Origin: Thermanaeromonas sp. C210
GTDB taxonomy: Bacteria > Bacillota > DSM-521 > Neomoorellales > Neomoorellaceae
NCBI RefSeq assembly: GCF_013167955.1
Contig: NZ_BLWF01000002.1
Span: 537,185 to 601,184 of the forward strand
Direction of reading: 5' to 3'
DNA length: 64,000 nucleotides
Part shown: positions 580 to 60,965 of the stretch, one piece after another
Layout of the letters: every line of letters begins with the position of its first letter
Numbering within the stretch: position 1 is the stretch's first letter
Position numbers and translations under genes: made by a program
The notes under the pieces: model-generated
What the model was told of the DNA's origin: nothing
Database searches by the model: none
The model's input: the letters and a program-made list of their open reading frames with translations, nothing else

Positions 580-1842
580 TTATTTTATAAAACCTTGGTA
601 GTGCCGGAGCAATAGATGGGATTCCAGTTGTTTCATGGTTTCCAGGGCTACGCCGACCACAATGAGGAGGGAGGTACCCCCGAAGTAGATGTTTATGCCC
701 GTAACTGCCATGACGAAATTCGGCAGAAGGGCTATGAAGGCCAGGAATACAGCGCCGGCCAAGGTAATCCGGGCCAGAATGCGCTCGATATATTCTGCCG
801 TGGGACGGCCCGGCCTCAAGCCGGGGATAAAGCCACCGTATTTCTTAATATTGTCGGCCACGTCCTGGGGATTAAAGGTCACGGCAGTGTAAAAATAGGT
901 GAAGAAGATAATGAGCAGGGCGTAAAGGCTCATGTAGAGCACCGACCCGGGGTCGAACATGGCCGTTATGGTCTGGGCAAACCGGTTATGGGGAAACCAG
1001 GATGCCAGGGTATGGGGGAAGAACAGGATTGACATGGCGAAGATCACCGGGATAACCCCTGCCTGGTTCACCCGCAGGGGAATATGGGTGCTCTGTCCCC
1101 CGTAGACCCGGCGGCCCACCACCCTCTTGGTGTACTGCACCGGGATGCGCCGCTGCCCCTCCTGCATGGCCACCACGGCCGCAATGACCACTATGGCAAT
1201 GACCGCGAATAGGAGCACGGAAAGGATACCGGCCGTTCCACTGGTAATATACTGGTAGATGGACACCGCCCCCGCCGGTAGCCGCGACACTATGCCGGCG
1301 AAGATGATCAGGGAGATGCCGTTGCCGATGCCCTTTTCGGTGATCAGTTCTCCCAGCCACATGAGAAATACGGTGCCTGCCGTAAGGCTGATGACCGTCA
1401 CCGCATGGTTGAAGAATCCGGGCGTAACATAGGCTCCCTGGCGGGCGAGCAGGACGGACATCCCCACGGCCTGGAGCACGCTGAGGACTACGGTACCATA
1501 GCGGGTGTACTGGATAATCTTCTTCCGCCCGTCGATTCCCTCCTTGGCCAGCCTCTCCAGGGAGGGTATTACCACCGTCAGGAGCTGCATAATGATAGAG
1601 GCGTTGATATAGGGCATAATACCCATGGCCAGGATCGTGAACCGTTTAAAGGCGCCGCCGGAGATGACGTCAAAAAACCCGAAGATTAACCCCGTGTCCA
1701 GCAGTTCCTTTAGCATTTCGGCGTTGATACCGGGCACCGGGATATGGGCTCCCAGGCGGAAGACCAAAAACATAAGGAGGGTAAAGATTATCCTTTTTCG
1801 CAGGTCCTCCAGTTTCCAGGCCTTTTGCAGGGTACCCAGCAC
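580..1842 (-). CDS. secY: protein translocase subunit SecY
   Basis: Pore-forming subunit of the SecYEG translocon, 420 residues with about ten predicted membrane helices. The N-terminus (LGTLQKAWKLEDLRKRI) and the loops with TKRVVGRRVYGGQSTHIPLRVNQAGVIPVIFA and the C-terminal GGTSLLIVVGVALETMKQLES are diagnostic of SecY. It begins directly after the rplO stop, so the two are translationally linked. SecE is encoded about 44 kb away at 45.3 kb. Confidence 0.98.
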   Translation of the reverse strand: MLGTLQKAWKLEDLRKRIIFTLLMFLVFRLGAHIPVPGINAEMLKELLDTGLIFGFFDVISGGAFKRFTILAMGIMPYINASIIMQLLTVVIPSLERLAKEGIDGRKKIIQYTRYGTVVLSVLQAVGMSVLLARQGAYVTPGFFNHAVTVISLTAGTVFLMWLGELITEKGIGNGISLIIFAGIVSRLPAGAVSIYQYITSGTAGILSVLLFAVIAIVVIAAVVAMQEGQRRIPVQYTKRVVGRRVYGGQSTHIPLRVNQAGVIPVIFAMSILFFPHTLASWFPHNRFAQTITAMFDPGSVLYMSLYALLIIFFTYFYTAVTFNPQDVADNIKKYGGFIPGLRPGRPTAEYIERILARITLAGAVFLAFIALLPNFVMAVTGINIYFGGTSLLIVVGVALETMKQLESHLLLRHYQGFIK

Positions 1843-43240: not shown

Positions 43241-43276
43241 AACCTTAGCACCCCCTTCCCGCAAGGCAAAGATAAA

Positions 43277-43435
43277 GCCCCTGCCGAAGCAAGGGCCGAT
43301 CTATCCCTCCGTGACAACGGAGAAATACGCGCCGCCCACCGGCCTCGGCAGGCCACTTTAAGCTCCCGGAGGAGCACCTGCTGTCTGCGGCCTCTGGGTT
43401 TATCCATCTTGTAGTCTTTGCTCCCTAAACCTTTA
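43277..43435 (-). ncRNA. L10 (rplJL) leader RNA with UUCG hairpin attenuator
   Basis: The minus-strand leader holds the conserved L10-binding core: AGACAGCAGGTGC, a TTAA linker after a GCTC/GAGC hairpin, and CTGCCGAGG (43343-43388). Near rplJ, GCCCTTGC-TTCG-GCAGGGGC (43277-43296) followed by TTTATCTTT is a UUCG-capped terminator-like hairpin. Free L10-L12 binding to this leader is the established feedback mechanism for rplJL. Confidence 0.85.
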
Positions 43436-55492: not shown

Positions 55493-55812
55493 AAAACAAG
55501 AACTCCCGTCCCTGCCGAGTCGTCAGGGACGGGAGTCTCTTCCCGCGGTGCCACCCTACTTGGCCAGGAAAGACCGTACCGGTTTTCCTGACCCCCTCTG
55601 CATGCGTAACGGACATGACCGGGCCGGTTTGCCCCGCCGCTGGCCTTCTCCGCTGAAGAGACCCTCCCCGACGGGTTTATCGCCGGCCACTCAGGGGTGC
55701 CTGGCTGCAGCCTCCGGGCTGGTTCCCACCGACCACCAGCTCTCTCGCTTACCGGAGTGGGCGCGCCTCCTCCCCCTCATCATTTTGGCGGTATCCTTTG
55801 TTTTTGGCAATG
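55493..55812 (-). ncRNA. T-box leader, probably tRNA-Ser responsive
   Basis: Minus-strand leader of the aminotransferase-serA operon. The T-box sequence AGGGTGGCACCGCGGG is at 55542-55557. The terminator stem ACTCCCGTCCCTG/CAGGGACGGGAGT (55502-55536) is followed by TTTT. Stem I closes with CCACTC/GAGTGG (about 55686-55762) and contains AGAGAG and a GCTGGT/ACCAGC hairpin. The UGGC bulge pairs with tRNAs whose discriminator base is G, which includes tRNA-Ser; the serine genes downstream agree. I could not fix the specifier codon (an AGC is one candidate). Confidence 0.92.
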
Positions 55813-55841: not shown

Positions 55842-55854
55842 GGGCCTTTTTCCC

Positions 55855-56115
55855 CTGAGTTATCCCCTGTTCTTATTCCAGACCTGCTTGGCTTTCGCTG
55901 GCTCCAAAAACCCTCGCGGGCCAAACTAGCGACCGGCCGCAAGCTCCGGCGGGGTTCCCGGCCCAATCGGCATCCTTGCCGGTGGGGCCGGTCTCGGACA
56001 TCCTATCCTCGACCCCGCCTCCGCTTTCGGCCGAAGCTCAAGCTCGGCTAGCCGCTCGTGTTTAGTCGCTCGCTTTCAAGTCCAAGCAGGCCTCTCCTTG
56101 CTAAAAGTGGAGATG
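55855..56115 (-). repeat. structured repeat element, copy B (unassigned)
   Basis: About 260 nt, homologous over its length to 60634-60884 in opposite orientation. Reading the minus strand it shares exact blocks with copy A: GGAGAGGCCTGC, CTTGAAAGCGAG, CGAAAGCGGAGGCGG and TAGTTTGGCCCGCGAGG. Helices: CCTGCTTGG/CCAAGCAGG near the ends, GGCGGGG/CCCCGCC (56013-56019 with 55948-55954), CCGGCCC/GGGCCGG (55985-55991 with 55958-55964), and small hairpins with GGA in the loop. It lies between the lysM stop and the T-box promoter. It may be an RNA or a DNA repeat; I know no family that fits. Confidence 0.85.
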
Positions 56116-56157
56116 CGCCAGCCTTTTCCCCAGGCGCGACGGCTGCCGGAGCGGGCC

Positions 56158-56331
56158 CTAGGGCAGGCAGATATACTGGCCGACCTGGAGATTGTACGGG
56201 TCTATGCCCGGGTTGAGTTCCAGCAGGCGCTCCACCGTGGTGCCCACGGCCTGGGCAATGCGGAACAGGGTATCGCCCGGAGCAACTTCCCAGAAGGCGC
56301 CGGAAGGACAAGGAGGCCTCACTTCTCCCAT
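56158..56331 (-). CDS. small LysM-domain protein
   Basis: 57 residues from the ATG at 56331 (MGEVRPPCPSGAFWEVAPGD...), AGGGGG eight bases upstream; an ATG at 56337 is also in frame. Nearly the whole protein is one LysM module: WEVAPGDTLFRIAQAVGTTVERLLELN, then PGIDPYNLQVGQYICLP. No signal peptide. The CPSG-LysM form is common in spore-forming Firmicutes, where LysM proteins bind peptidoglycan or spore cortex. It follows the DUF1848 gene by about 130 bp. Confidence 0.88.
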   Translation of the reverse strand: MGEVRPPCPSGAFWEVAPGDTLFRIAQAVGTTVERLLELNPGIDPYNLQVGQYICLP

Positions 56332-56464
56332 AAGCATAACCCCCTGGAGAAAACTTTTGCACTTCCCCGCTTTAATTTATGCTGTCTCCTGTCAAAGGGG
56401 TATAGGCCGCCCTCTGGGGTTTGAGGGACTTGCCGGGGGTGTGCCGATACGCCTTGCTCGGAAG

Positions 56465-57235
56465 TCAGCGGCCTGCGTTGGCGTAGCAATAAAGGCAGCC
56501 CGAAGGGCAGACCATGTTGTACCAGCCCAGATCTACTGCATGGGTACAACCGCATAAGGGGCGCTGTCCCCTGGCCCTATCCGTACGGCACGGTTCACCG
56601 CGGGGGTGGAGCTGGCTCAAGAGCCGGCCGTCGATACAGCTTGAGGTGGGCAAGCCCGGAACACAGCAGGCATATAAGGTTGCCCCGCACGCCCCGGCGG
56701 CTGCGGCCAGACGGCTCCATATCTGCCGGCGCTGGTCGCCGTCAAAGGGCACCGCCTCCCATCCCCGCCCGCCGAGGCGGCGCCGCACCTTGGGATATAA
56801 TTCCACAAAGGAAGTAGAAAAGCTTTTTACCCCCCGCGCGGCTGCTTCCCGTATAATGTCCACGGCTTCTTCTACGTTAGTAAAGGTCCGTTCACCGCGG
56901 CGGAAGATCAGCAGGGGATCCGGGCGCACCCGCAGGCGGCGGGGATCGCCCAGGAAGTCCACCAGGTCCGGGATCCTGGCCAGGACCTGCTCGGGTGGGG
57001 GTACTTGGGGCTCGACGGGCGTGCCTCCCAGGCCGGTGATGGTGAGGTGAAGGTAGACTTGGTCATAGCGCCTCAAGGCCGGCCGGAGCCCTCCCAGCAC
57101 CGCCTGGGGAAACTTAGTCCACACCACCACTGTGTGCACTCGTTCCGGGGGATAGCGGCTGGTCAGGAGGTTGGCCAGCCTGTCGGCGTAAAAGAAAGGC
57201 TCTGTCCGGCGGGAAAGGCTTACCACGACCTTCAC
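56465..57235 (-). CDS. DUF1848 family protein
   Basis: 256 residues from the GTG at 57235 (M)KVVVSLSRRTEPFFYADRLANLL, with GGGAGG about eight bases upstream. Typical of the family are the SxSRRT start, VVVWTKFPQAVL, the D-x-V-YLHLTITGLG strand, FSTSFVELYPKV and the C-terminal cysteine cluster RPLCGCTHAVDLGWYNMVCPSGCLYCYA. Such Cys motifs suggest an Fe-S or radical-SAM-like centre, but the function is unknown. It starts 19 nt after the selB stop, so it is probably co-transcribed with selAB. Confidence 0.9.
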   Translation of the reverse strand: MKVVVSLSRRTEPFFYADRLANLLTSRYPPERVHTVVVWTKFPQAVLGGLRPALRRYDQVYLHLTITGLGGTPVEPQVPPPEQVLARIPDLVDFLGDPRRLRVRPDPLLIFRRGERTFTNVEEAVDIIREAAARGVKSFSTSFVELYPKVRRRLGGRGWEAVPFDGDQRRQIWSRLAAAAGACGATLYACCVPGLPTSSCIDGRLLSQLHPRGEPCRTDRARGQRPLCGCTHAVDLGWYNMVCPSGCLYCYANAGR

Positions 57236-57254
57236 GGCCCCGGCCTCCCTAACC

Positions 57255-59159
57255 TCAGCCGATGACAATCCGCTTGTCGCCGACGCGGCGCGTAAACTTG
57301 GTGTGGTCCAGGTATTCCAGGAGGGGCAGTACATACTTGCGCGAGCTTCCCAAGAGGTCCCGCACCTCGGCCAGGGTAAAAGGGCCCTTTTCCCCCAACC
57401 GCCTTATGGCTTCCCGGGCCTCTTCCAGGGCTTCGCGGTGAAAGTATAGGCCTTCGGATACTTTCACCAGAATTCCCTGGCGCACCAGGTAATGGAGCAA
57501 CTCTTCCAGTTCCCCTGCCGTAAGGTCCAGGTCTTTCCCGGCCTCCTCCGTCGAGGGTGGCTGGAAATGGCCCTGCCGGTAGCGCTCCTCCAGCACGGAG
57601 ATGGCCTTTTGCTGGCGCGCATCCATCTGGGGGCGGTAGCCTGCCAGGTGCACGCTGTTCCCCTCTACGCCGATTCTTCCTTCGGCCTCCCAGTGTTCCA
57701 GGAGACCGTAGAAAGTGCGCCCGTCCAGCCGGGGGAAGAATCGCGTCCGCAGCTCCTCTTTGGGAAGGCCGGATCTCAAGGAGTAGCGGCGGTGAAACTC
57801 CTCCAGGGCGTCCCGGACCCTCTCCCACCACCGGTTCAACGAGGCCGGGGTCACGGCATAAAGATCCCCCTCTCCTGCAGGAAGGAGCACCACCTTGCCT
57901 TCTTTCTCGGCGACCGCGAGGATCTCATGGGCCTCCTTACGATCCACCTCCGCCCGGGCAGCTGCCTTCCGCAGGCTAAGGCCCTCCCTCTCCTCCCCCA
58001 CTACACTTAGGAGGATGTCCCGGGAGGTCCCGGCCATCCGCCGCGCCAGGGTCTGGATCACCTCTTCCCGGAATCGCCGTCGCCGGGGAGGATTGATGCT
58101 GATTACCTCCCCCCCTCCGATGGTTTCCAGGGGGGAATAGGTGCGCAGGATAAAACGATCCCGCGCGGCCGCTACCACCGGTTCCTCCAGGAGGAGTTGG
58201 GCAAAGGCTTCTTGTCCCCCGCCCAATTCCTCCCGGTCCAGCAGGGCCACCCGTCCCAGGGCTTCTTTAGTGCCCAGGTAGAAGCGGATCCGCTGCCGGT
58301 GTTTTAAAGGCTGGGCCTCCGGCAGGAGCTTTAGGCTTACGTCCAGCCGCCAGGCCGGCCTCCACCATCCCGGCTCCACCACCACGCTACCCCGGTGGAC
58401 TTCTTCCACGTTCACACCCGTGAGGTTGACGGCCACCCGCTGGCCGGCCTGGGCCCGCTCCACAGACCTGCCATGGACCTGCAGGCTTCGCGCCCGGCTC
58501 TTTAAACCTTCCGGCTGGATTTCCACTTCACTGCCGACCTGGATGGTTCCCGACCACAGGGTACCGGTCACGATAGTACCGAAGCCGGGGAGGGAAAAAA
58601 CCCGGTCGATGGGCAGTCTTACCCTCCCCGAGGCCGGACGGGGCGGAATTTCACGGGTTTCTTGGGCCAGGAGGTCCTGGAGTTCTTCAATCCCCTCCCC
58701 CGTCACGGCCGAAACCTTCACGAGGGGCGCCCCTTCCAGGACCGTCCCTTTAACGGCGTCCCGGACTTCCTCCTCCACCAGGGCCAGCCAATCCTCCTCC
58801 ACCAGATCTATCTTGGTCACCACCAGGATACCCCGGGGAACCCGGAGGAGGTCGATTATGGCCAGGTGTTCCCGGGTCTGGGGCATTACACCTTCGTCCG
58901 CAGCTACCACCAGGAGGACGAGGTCAATGCCCGCCACCCCGGCCAGCATCTGCCGGATGAAACGCTCGTGGCCGGGGACATCCACCAGCCCCAGCTGCCG
59001 ACCGTCGGGCAGCCGCAGGGGCGCAAACCCCAGCTCTATAGAGATGCCTCGTTCTTTCTCTTCCTTCAGCCGGTCCGTGTCCACGCCGGTGAGGGCTTTG
59101 ACCAGTTCGGTTTTCCCGTGATCTACATGGCCCGCCGTGCCTACCACCACATAATCCAA
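57255..59159 (-). CDS. selB: selenocysteine-specific elongation factor SelB
   Basis: GTPase that delivers Sec-tRNA-Sec to UGA codons marked by a SECIS hairpin, 634 residues. G1 [31 protein letters not shown] are intact; EF-Tu-like domains 2-3 follow. The C-terminal half (from about 377) consists of winged-helix modules ([73 protein letters not shown]) that bind SECIS RNA. I recall 634 residues as the length of the crystallised Moorella thermoacetica SelB. It follows selA by 12 nt. Confidence 0.97.
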
Positions 59160-59171
59160 GGAGCTTCCCCC

Positions 59172-60560
59172 TTATGCCAGGACCTGGGATAGGGCCCGCA
59201 CTATCTCCGCTTCTTCTCCCGGCAAGACGGTACGCAGGTCGAGGATCAGATTCTCATCCTGTATGCGGGTCAGGACGGGCGGCTCCACCTGTCGTAATTT
59301 TTCTGCCGCCCGGGCGGCGCTGACCCGGAGGGGACGGACCGTCACCCCCCACGAAGGAAGCTCGGCCAGGGGCAGGGCACCGCCGCCCACCTGGGAAGAT
59401 ACTTCCTTGACCCCCACCTCGGCCCGGCCTCCTATCTTCTCCCCCAGCAATTCGCTAAGCCTGGCGGCCCGCCTGGCCAGCTCTTCCCCGGAAAGGGTTA
59501 AAAGCCGCAAGGTGGGGATCTCCTGCCGGGCCCTTTCCGGCTCCCGGTACGCCCTTAAGGTGGCTTCCAGGGCAGCTAGGGTCATCTTATCGATGCGCAC
59601 GGCCCGGTTCAGGGGGTGACGGGCCACCTCCCGGACTAAATCCGCCCGGCCTACAATAATACCTGCCTGGGGCCCTCCCAGGAGTTTATCACCGCTAAAG
59701 GTGAGGAGATCCACCCCCGCCGCCACTTCGTCCTGGACCGTGGGCTCATGGCCTAGGCCGTATTCACCTAAATCCACAAAGCAGCCGCTTCCCAGGTCTT
59801 CCATGACGGGAATACCGTACTTGCGGCCCAGGCTCACCAGCTCGGCGGTGCTCACCTCCCGGGTAAAGCCGAGGACCCGGTAATTGCTGGGATGGACTTT
59901 GAGGAGTAGGGCCGTATCCGAGGTAATGGCCCTTTCATAATCGGAGAGGTAAGTCTTGTTGGTAGTCCCCACTTCCACCAGCCGCGTCCCGCTATGGGCC
60001 ATGACTTCCGGCACCCGGAAGGAGCCCCCGATCTCTACCAGCTGGCCGCGAGAAATAACGGTCTCGCGGCCGGCGGCCAGAGCGGCCAGGCAGAGAAATA
60101 CGGCGGCCGCATTATTGTTGACCACCAACGCCGCTTCGGCCCCCGTAATCTCCTGCAACAGCTCTACTACGTGGCTGTACCGGCTGCCCCTCTCCCCCGT
60201 GGTCAGGTCCATCTCCAGGTTGCTGTAATGGGCAGCACAGATGGCCACGGCTTCCACGGCGGCGGGGCTTAAGAGGGCCCGCCCCAGATTGGTGTGAAGG
60301 ACCACCCCGGTGGCGTTGATAACCCTTCGCAGGCTGGGCCTTTCACGGCGTTCAAAGAGGGCGGCAGCTTGGGCCGCCAGTTCCGCCGGGCCCGGGGGTT
60401 CGGCCCCCTCCTTTAAGATGCGTTCCCGCCACTCCTCCAGCACCCGGCGTACACAGTCCCTGGCCCGCAACCGGTCCCTGGCCACCGCTGGTGCCAGTTC
60501 CTCGCGCTGCAGCACTTCATGGACTGCCGGCAAGAGGCGCAGCAATTCTTCCGGCCCCAT
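59172..60560 (-). CDS. selA: L-seryl-tRNA(Sec) selenium transferase
   Basis: PLP enzyme that converts Ser-tRNA-Sec to Sec-tRNA-Sec with selenophosphate, 462 residues from the ATG at 60560 (MGPEELLRLLPAVHEVLQ); GAGGTGTTAAGG lies upstream. The open frame runs to 60641 but that extension enters the repeat region. PLP-binding lysine in LLTFSGDKLLGGPQAG; GVVLHTNLGRALLSPAA and NNNAAAVFL are conserved. selC and selD are not in the window. Confidence 0.97.
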   Translation of the reverse strand: MGPEELLRLLPAVHEVLQREELAPAVARDRLRARDCVRRVLEEWRERILKEGAEPPGPAELAAQAAALFERRERPSLRRVINATGVVLHTNLGRALLSPAAVEAVAICAAHYSNLEMDLTTGERGSRYSHVVELLQEITGAEAALVVNNNAAAVFLCLAALAAGRETVISRGQLVEIGGSFRVPEVMAHSGTRLVEVGTTNKTYLSDYERAITSDTALLLKVHPSNYRVLGFTREVSTAELVSLGRKYGIPVMEDLGSGCFVDLGEYGLGHEPTVQDEVAAGVDLLTFSGDKLLGGPQAGIIVGRADLVREVARHPLNRAVRIDKMTLAALEATLRAYREPERARQEIPTLRLLTLSGEELARRAARLSELLGEKIGGRAEVGVKEVSSQVGGGALPLAELPSWGVTVRPLRVSAARAAEKLRQVEPPVLTRIQDENLILDLRTVLPGEEAEIVRALSQVLA

Positions 60561-60633
60561 CCTTAACACCTCTTCTTCTGCCTGGATTATATCCTTCCCG
60601 GCCGTCCCGCGCAACCTAGGCGCTACCTGAGTT

Positions 60634-60884
60634 ATCCCCACTTTTTGCGGGAGAGGCCTGCCTTGGCTTGAAAGCGAGGGACTAAACCCGAGGGGCTGCC
60701 GAACTTCACGAGGTCGAAAGCGGAGGCGGACCCGAGGCCGTGGACGGCCGAAGCCGGCAATTGAGACGGGAGGTCGGATTTGCCGGGAAGTCCGCCTTAA
60801 GCTTATAGGCTGAGTGATAGTTTGGCCCGCGAGGATTTCCAGAGGGAGGGAAAGCCTAGCAGACCCAGGCTCGAAAGTGGGGAT
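60634..60884 (+). repeat. structured repeat element, copy A (unassigned)
   Basis: 251 nt on the plus strand, upstream of and divergent from selA. It is closed by an 11-bp stem ATCCCCACTTT (60634-60644) / AAAGTGGGGAT (60874-60884). Inner helices: GGCGGAC/GTCCGCC (60725-60731 with 60790-60796), CCGGCAA/TTGCCGG (60754-60760 with 60780-60786), and the hairpin GGCCG-TGGA-CGGCC (60736-60749). Copy B has different bases at both sides of the two inner helices but keeps the pairing. CTGAGTTATCCCC (60627-60639) also recurs, same strand, at 55855-55867. Function unknown. Confidence 0.85.
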
Positions 60885-60965
60885 GCAACGGGGATGCGCC
60901 CGGAGCAGTACACCGGAACAGGCTTTCCCGACTGCCGCGTGAGGGAGGGGATCGTCAACAGGCCC

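Follow-up and report, generated by a model that had tools for sequence, protein, structure and literature searches.

Two inverted copies of a mobile element

The window analyzed here is a whole stretch of 64,000 nt from Thermanaeromonas sp. C210 (contig NZ_BLWF01000002.1, positions 537,185 to 601,184), and it contains two inverted copies, A and B, of a mobile element that carries a conserved RNA fold. The genes between the copies are those for SelA, SelB, DUF1848, and LysM (Pfam). A previous reading made from the letters alone (hereafter, the sequence-only reading) had recognized the pair by blocks of exact identity; these blocks were recovered in an alignment of copy A (plus strand) with copy B (minus strand) across ~265 nt, and the true extents are slightly larger than first drawn. 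The features below were located with a profile hidden Markov model (HMM) of the element, with a structural alignment (A5), and with R1, a covariance model built only from copies of a neighboring genus (g5, which we infer is probably Moorella) and from none of the host genus.

60627..60889, plus strand: copy A, mobile element (profile HMM 230.9 bits, envelope 60627-60889)
60627..60645, plus strand: left terminal inverted repeat of copy A, CTGAGTTATCCCCACTTTT (from the sequence; agrees with the family ends)
60656..60864, plus strand: RNA core of copy A, TwoAYGGAY-like, a rod with a three-way junction (R1 95.8 bits, E 3e-21, full length 1-209)
60736..60749, plus strand: first tip hairpin of copy A, GGCC-GUGGAC-GGCC, loop with GGA (A5)
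60765..60775, plus strand: second tip hairpin of copy A, GAC-GGGAG-GUC, loop with GGA (A5)
60874..60886, plus strand: right terminal repeat of copy A, AAAGTGGGGATGC (from the sequence; agrees with the family ends)
55846..55854, no strand: left target duplication of copy B, CTTTTTCCC (9-bp duplication, 1 mismatch)
55855..56121, minus strand: copy B, mobile element, complete from CTG to CAG (profile HMM 177.9 bits, positions 1-265)
55882..56091, minus strand: RNA core of copy B, TwoAYGGAY-like (R1 152.2 bits, E 9e-35, full length)
55969..55980, minus strand: second tip hairpin of copy B, GGC-AAGGAU-GCC, loop with GGA (A5)
55996..56008, minus strand: first tip hairpin of copy B, GGAU-AGGAU-GUCC, loop with GGA (A5)
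56122..56130, no strand: right target duplication of copy B, CCTTTTCCC (9-bp duplication, 1 mismatch)

The 3' end of copy A is degenerate near 60886-60902, where GGGGATGC is partly repeated to ~60902, and this copy has no clean target duplication. Two minus-strand genes flank copy A, which is antisense to both. Copy B is in sense, with the LysM gene on one side and an aminotransferase/serA operon on the other, just upstream of the T-box of that operon. This T-box leader (55522-55789, minus strand) scored 76.9 bits against an Rfam cut-off of 93 and precedes the aminotransferase/serA-like genes. The sequence-only reading had described the pair as flanking a selA-selB-DUF1848-lysM cassette and pointing outward from it. 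The orientation is as described, but among ~50 scattered copies the arrangement has no evident meaning; any association with the selenocysteine cassette is incidental.

Copy number and mobility

Copies A and B are two of ~50 copies in the 2.68-Mb genome. A BLASTN search of the genome, which the sequence-only reading had suggested, returned 41 matches at E 1e-5; the profile HMM identified 52 matches, 38 of them near full length, and the covariance model identified 53. Median identity between pairs of copies in this genome was ~75%, although two copies at unlinked sites were identical and a third differed from them only slightly. The element is 239-273 bp long (typically ~265 bp) and contains no transposase gene. 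Copies bear terminal inverted repeats (CTGRSKTATCCCC...), and the ends common to them are CTGRSKTATCCCCRSTTT...AAASTGGGGATRMGYCAG (CTG...CAG). Direct repeats of 9 bp with at most one mismatch flank 14 of the 25 copies that have both termini intact, and 9 of these repeats are exact; among mismatched pairs of left and right flanks, the same pattern occurred in 1 of 600, and other repeat lengths showed essentially no excess. Because it has terminal inverted repeats and 9-bp target duplications, the element is a non-autonomous transposable element resembling a miniature inverted-repeat transposable element (MITE): it is short, multi-copy, and transposase-free, with inverted termini and a target duplication of fixed length. 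In the CTG at its ends and its 9-bp duplications it resembles what we take to be the pattern of the IS4-type insertion sequences IS10 and IS50; unlike them, it has no internal transposase.

No insertion sequence with the exact end pattern of the element, which would be a candidate helper, was found in this genome or in seven others, where draft assemblies break at copies. The DDE_Tnp_1 insertion sequences of this genome were considered for this role and rejected, as their ends differ. Elsewhere, the exact end pattern occurred only in elements, in end pairs 154-230 bp apart that resemble shorter variants, or at isolated sites; matches to it in distant phyla may be due to chance. In one draft assembly (G003), many contigs end within copies (e.g., C6, C45, C47, C62, C75, C81), so the element fragments assemblies. 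At another locus (L020), a Cobalamin riboswitch (1253-1449, minus strand, 121.6 bits) adjoins a recent insertion with a target duplication.

A conserved RNA fold on one strand

The structure was derived from 13 copies of genus g5, and the consensus fold was then tested on copies from this genome; RNAalifold performed poorly on a plain sequence alignment of every copy, and its structure was not used. The consensus is a single long rod of short helices split by symmetric GA/GA (tandem-GA) loops along its entire length, with a three-way junction bearing two hairpins on top. R1 matched 43 places in the examined loci, of which 41 are in this genome, copies A and B included, and folding of these two copies surpassed that of all shuffled sequences (z = -5.1 and -4.9).

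The helices that the sequence-only reading had singled out as compensated between copies A and B do hold: GGCGGAC/GTCCGCC corresponds to GGCGGGG/CCCCGCC, CCGGCAA/TTGCCGG corresponds to CCGGCCC/GGGCCGG, and the small hairpin is likewise kept. In the alignment of the 43 R1 copies, two-sided changes occurred in 48 of 68 pairs and pairing is kept in 91% of cells; 303 cells are two-sided, compared with 95 ± 10 after shuffling and 26-52 with slid partners. Fitting the alignment to the structure inflates absolute covariation values, but the structure itself was derived from other genomes. With the same limit on absolute values, a phylum-wide alignment of 33 copies (median identity 62%) showed two-sided changes in 63 of 68 pairs and 454 two-sided cells, compared with 125 ± 9 after shuffling. 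Such an excess over the controls bears out the proposed selection on a fold. On the plus strand, GU exceeds AC by 114:62 (p = 1e-4), and the conserved unpaired bases are mainly G or A; both features point to the plus strand as the single folded strand, as expected of RNA. The suggestion of a dispersed family of "non-coding RNA or hairpin elements" was therefore right on both counts, as a MITE-like element carries an RNA fold, with ~50 copies here and relatives across the phylum.

MITEs with conserved RNA folds have a precedent in bcr1 of Bacillus cereus, likewise short, non-autonomous, and dispersed, with a fold kept by compensatory changes. The element described here differs from bcr1 in sequence, in its ends, and in its 9-bp target duplication, and its fold, with apparent protein sites, is that of a defined RNA family.

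Relation to TwoAYGGAY and spread across the phylum

R1 matched in 18 of 22 genomes of the host order and, across the phylum, in 56 of the 299 genomes sampled, with carriers including Desulfovirgula and Desulfofundulus. The sequence-only reading had found no RNA family for the element, but at some of these relatives the Rfam model RF01731 (TwoAYGGAY) coincides with R1 in place and strand, and several such matches lie at or above the Rfam cut-off (e.g., G125:C34, G193:C30, G125:C26, G037:C50, G037:C52, G076:C5, and G254:C16). At G125:C34, the scores were 70.1 bits for R1 and 73.6 bits for RF01731, and R1 matched 6 of the 10 best RF01731 loci. With E values up to 10 allowed, RF01731 matched neither copy A nor copy B, and it also did not match 20 further copies or any place in this genome; searched by themselves, the window copies matched no Rfam family, and the link to TwoAYGGAY emerged only via relatives.

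The element RNA shares with TwoAYGGAY two tip hairpins with AYGGAY-like loops, paired on a junction over a long stem, and tandem-GA pairs in that stem, as reported for TwoAYGGAY (PMC4333381). It differs in that its outer rod is longer (~209 vs 168 positions), in being transposon cargo present in ~50 copies, and in scoring below Rfam detection in those copies. Given that the window copies fall below the Rfam threshold while their relatives match RF01731, the element RNA is a divergent branch related to TwoAYGGAY and not a certified member of the family.

Another genus of the host family has identical ends and dozens of copies, whereas g5 copies keep the core without the host-type ends; end repeats or flanking duplications were also seen in relatives from other families. 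In G260, from another family, copies (L230-L233) have different ends, CAGACTGTAGACAAA...TTTGTCGACAAACTG, and appear to be placed in hairpins resembling terminators, as though another transposon carried the same RNA core. In G280, from a different family, a copy appears by eye nearly the same as one subfamily of this genome, and this resemblance suggests horizontal spread. That copy (G280:C2:36451-36660, L222 / L141) is located within an Rfam T-box stretch upstream of metG where the match spans 545 nt, as if inserted between the T-box halves. Three sister species of one genus (L144, L146, and L147, ~1501-1714) each have exactly one copy between the same two flanking genes. The copy in L146 is inverted relative to those in L144 and L147, which suggests in-place flipping of a near-palindrome.

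Both the TwoAYGGAY RNA family and MITEs are known, so this is not a categorically new element; spread of TwoAYGGAY by transposition has apparently not been described before, and the combination, its scale, and the co-occurrence with CsrA described below appear to be new.

GGA tips and the distribution of CsrA

Both tip loops contain GGA in 28 of the 43 R1 copies. Among the 33 distant copies (median identity 62%), GGA is present in both loops in 30, with counts for the single loops of 30/33 and 33/33. The usual tip forms are C-AUGGAU-G and ACAGGAUGU. The site bound most tightly by CsrA/RsmE is a stem capped directly by an ANGGAX hexaloop (PMC4005645), and the CsrA consensus from systematic evolution of ligands by exponential enrichment (SELEX) is RUACARGGAUGU (PMC7652899); the tip loops of the element agree with both. 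From motifs alone, an earlier survey had proposed TwoAYGGAY as a CsrA-binding small RNA (PMC4333381). The tips are probable paired CsrA sites. CsrB/RsmZ-type decoys also carry GGA in hairpin loops of the high-affinity ANGGAX type; unlike them, the element has two sites per RNA rather than many, is present in many genomic copies, has no known sequence relation to them, and is only predicted to bind CsrA.

Among the sampled phylum genomes, CsrA was identified in 71 of 74 with R1 or RF01731 matches and in 143 of 225 without (p = 5e-9, kinship ignored); for RF01731 alone, it was identified in 45 of 46 genomes (p = 1.6e-6, kinship ignored). Within the host order, 17 of 18 genomes with the element have CsrA, compared with none of the 4 genomes without it. 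Each of these four is from a separate genus, and in one of these genera another species has both the element and CsrA, so joint loss probably occurred more than once. The genome of strain C210 (G000) has two csrA genes (G000:C4:423146-423298 and C1:797366-797509), one of which adjoins fliW and fliD. A sense copy of the element is located directly downstream of fliW-csrA-fliD (gene names by sequence resemblance).

Proposed explanation and alternatives

We consider it reasonably probable that the element is a CsrA-binding RNA spread by transposition that acts as a decoy for CsrA and at some sites as a leader responsive to it. In this explanation, a ~265-bp non-autonomous transposon, mobilized by a putative helper transposase, carries in its interior a TwoAYGGAY-type RNA composed of a tandem-GA rod and a junction with two GGA hairpins. 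The core RNA would be transcribed from dispersed copies, and its two GGA loops would engage both faces of a CsrA dimer, which an RNA with two sites suits. Transcribed copies would titrate CsrA as decoys, and copies just before a start codon may serve as CsrA-responsive leaders.

Several observations weigh against this proposal. The orientation of copies relative to co-directional flanking genes is 18:8 in this genome (p = 0.08, genes defined by a longest-ORF [open reading frame] rule) and 18:13 elsewhere; with so weak a bias, many copies, copy A included, are antisense to nearby operons. (A bias of 31:12 first looked significant and was dropped, as divergent gene pairs are uninformative.) GGA loops have been lost in some copies. 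The RNA is present with no CsrA match in G019 (a 590-contig draft), G022, G152, and G193. In addition, CsrA may merely mark motile lineages, as the association statistics ignore phylogeny.

A possible but doubtful alternative is that the element acts only in cis, as a leader controlling the gene directly downstream in sense via CsrA or the ribosome, and not as a decoy. In 20 of the 34 g5 copies scanned, a Shine-Dalgarno-like sequence and an open start codon occur ≤120 nt from the core, including before purQ, dnaK, and argJ-like genes. In Bacillus subtilis, CsrA covers the Shine-Dalgarno sequence of hag and thereby represses this gene (PMC7652899). The position of the g5 copies would be a natural site for CsrA-controlled translation. 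Outside g5, however, many copies are antisense to both neighbors or lie between convergent genes, and the syntenic copy is inverted between sister species. Given also the weak orientation bias in this genome, a purely cis role is unlikely to account for every copy.

Some g5 copies (L196; L113, lepA-hemW; L197, purS-purQ) are inside conserved operons and very near start codons, and the hemW start is seemingly at or within the element. Duplication of the Shine-Dalgarno sequence at g5 insertions is not claimed, as the GGAG there may belong to the element. Elsewhere in the window, a Ribosomal protein L10 leader (RF00557) was identified at 43262-43408 (minus strand, 45.8 bits).

It is unlikely that the element is a MITE at the DNA level only, i.e., a near-palindrome whose hairpin serves transposition or which merely accumulates, with paired changes arising by hairpin gene conversion or template switching and no role for RNA. 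Transposition as DNA is demonstrated by the terminal repeats and target duplications, the element is nearly self-complementary (its reverse complement scores ~130 bits), and the orientation bias is weak. On the other hand, the same core is kept without the host-type ends in other genera and families. A DNA palindrome would need neither tandem-GA loops and GGA tips on one strand only, nor an excess of GU over AC, nor the retention of exactly one copy in the same neighborhood by three sister species.

Similarly improbable, in our estimation, is binding by a different protein or ligand, with GGA tips that just resemble CsrA sites. The long tandem-GA rod exceeds what a CsrA site needs, and no tested function of TwoAYGGAY is reported in PMC2864571 or PMC4333381; the identity of the loops, the pairing of two sites, and the co-occurrence with CsrA nevertheless argue for CsrA.

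A decayed protein-coding repeat, which the sequence-only reading had named as the explanation that would undo its own, has a negligible probability and was rejected: some open frames cross the element, as chance predicts in GC-rich DNA, but the GC/CG and AU/GC helix swaps track base pairing rather than position in the codon, indels of 1-3 nt occur often, and the short frame in some g5 copies sits in a hairpin whose arms co-vary.

Implications

TwoAYGGAY, an orphan RNA since 2010, now has a much larger family within one phylum, a longer structure with strong support, and a mode of spread by transposition with 9-bp duplications. The link to CsrA proposed for it gains genome-scale support, including joint absence within one order, and that link can be tested directly with the covariance model and the prediction for the GGA loops. 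More tentatively, the RNA could be a CsrA-binding module dispersed through this phylum of Firmicutes by different transposon ends and supplying up to tens of two-site decoys or leaders per genome; if so, transposition would repeatedly rewire the CsrA network, and CsrA control in Gram-positive bacteria would have an RNA branch.

For CsrA of Gram-positive bacteria, the antagonist mainly known is the protein FliW. If CsrA binds the element, Gram-positive CsrA would also have RNA decoys, with mobile elements as a source of new CsrA targets.

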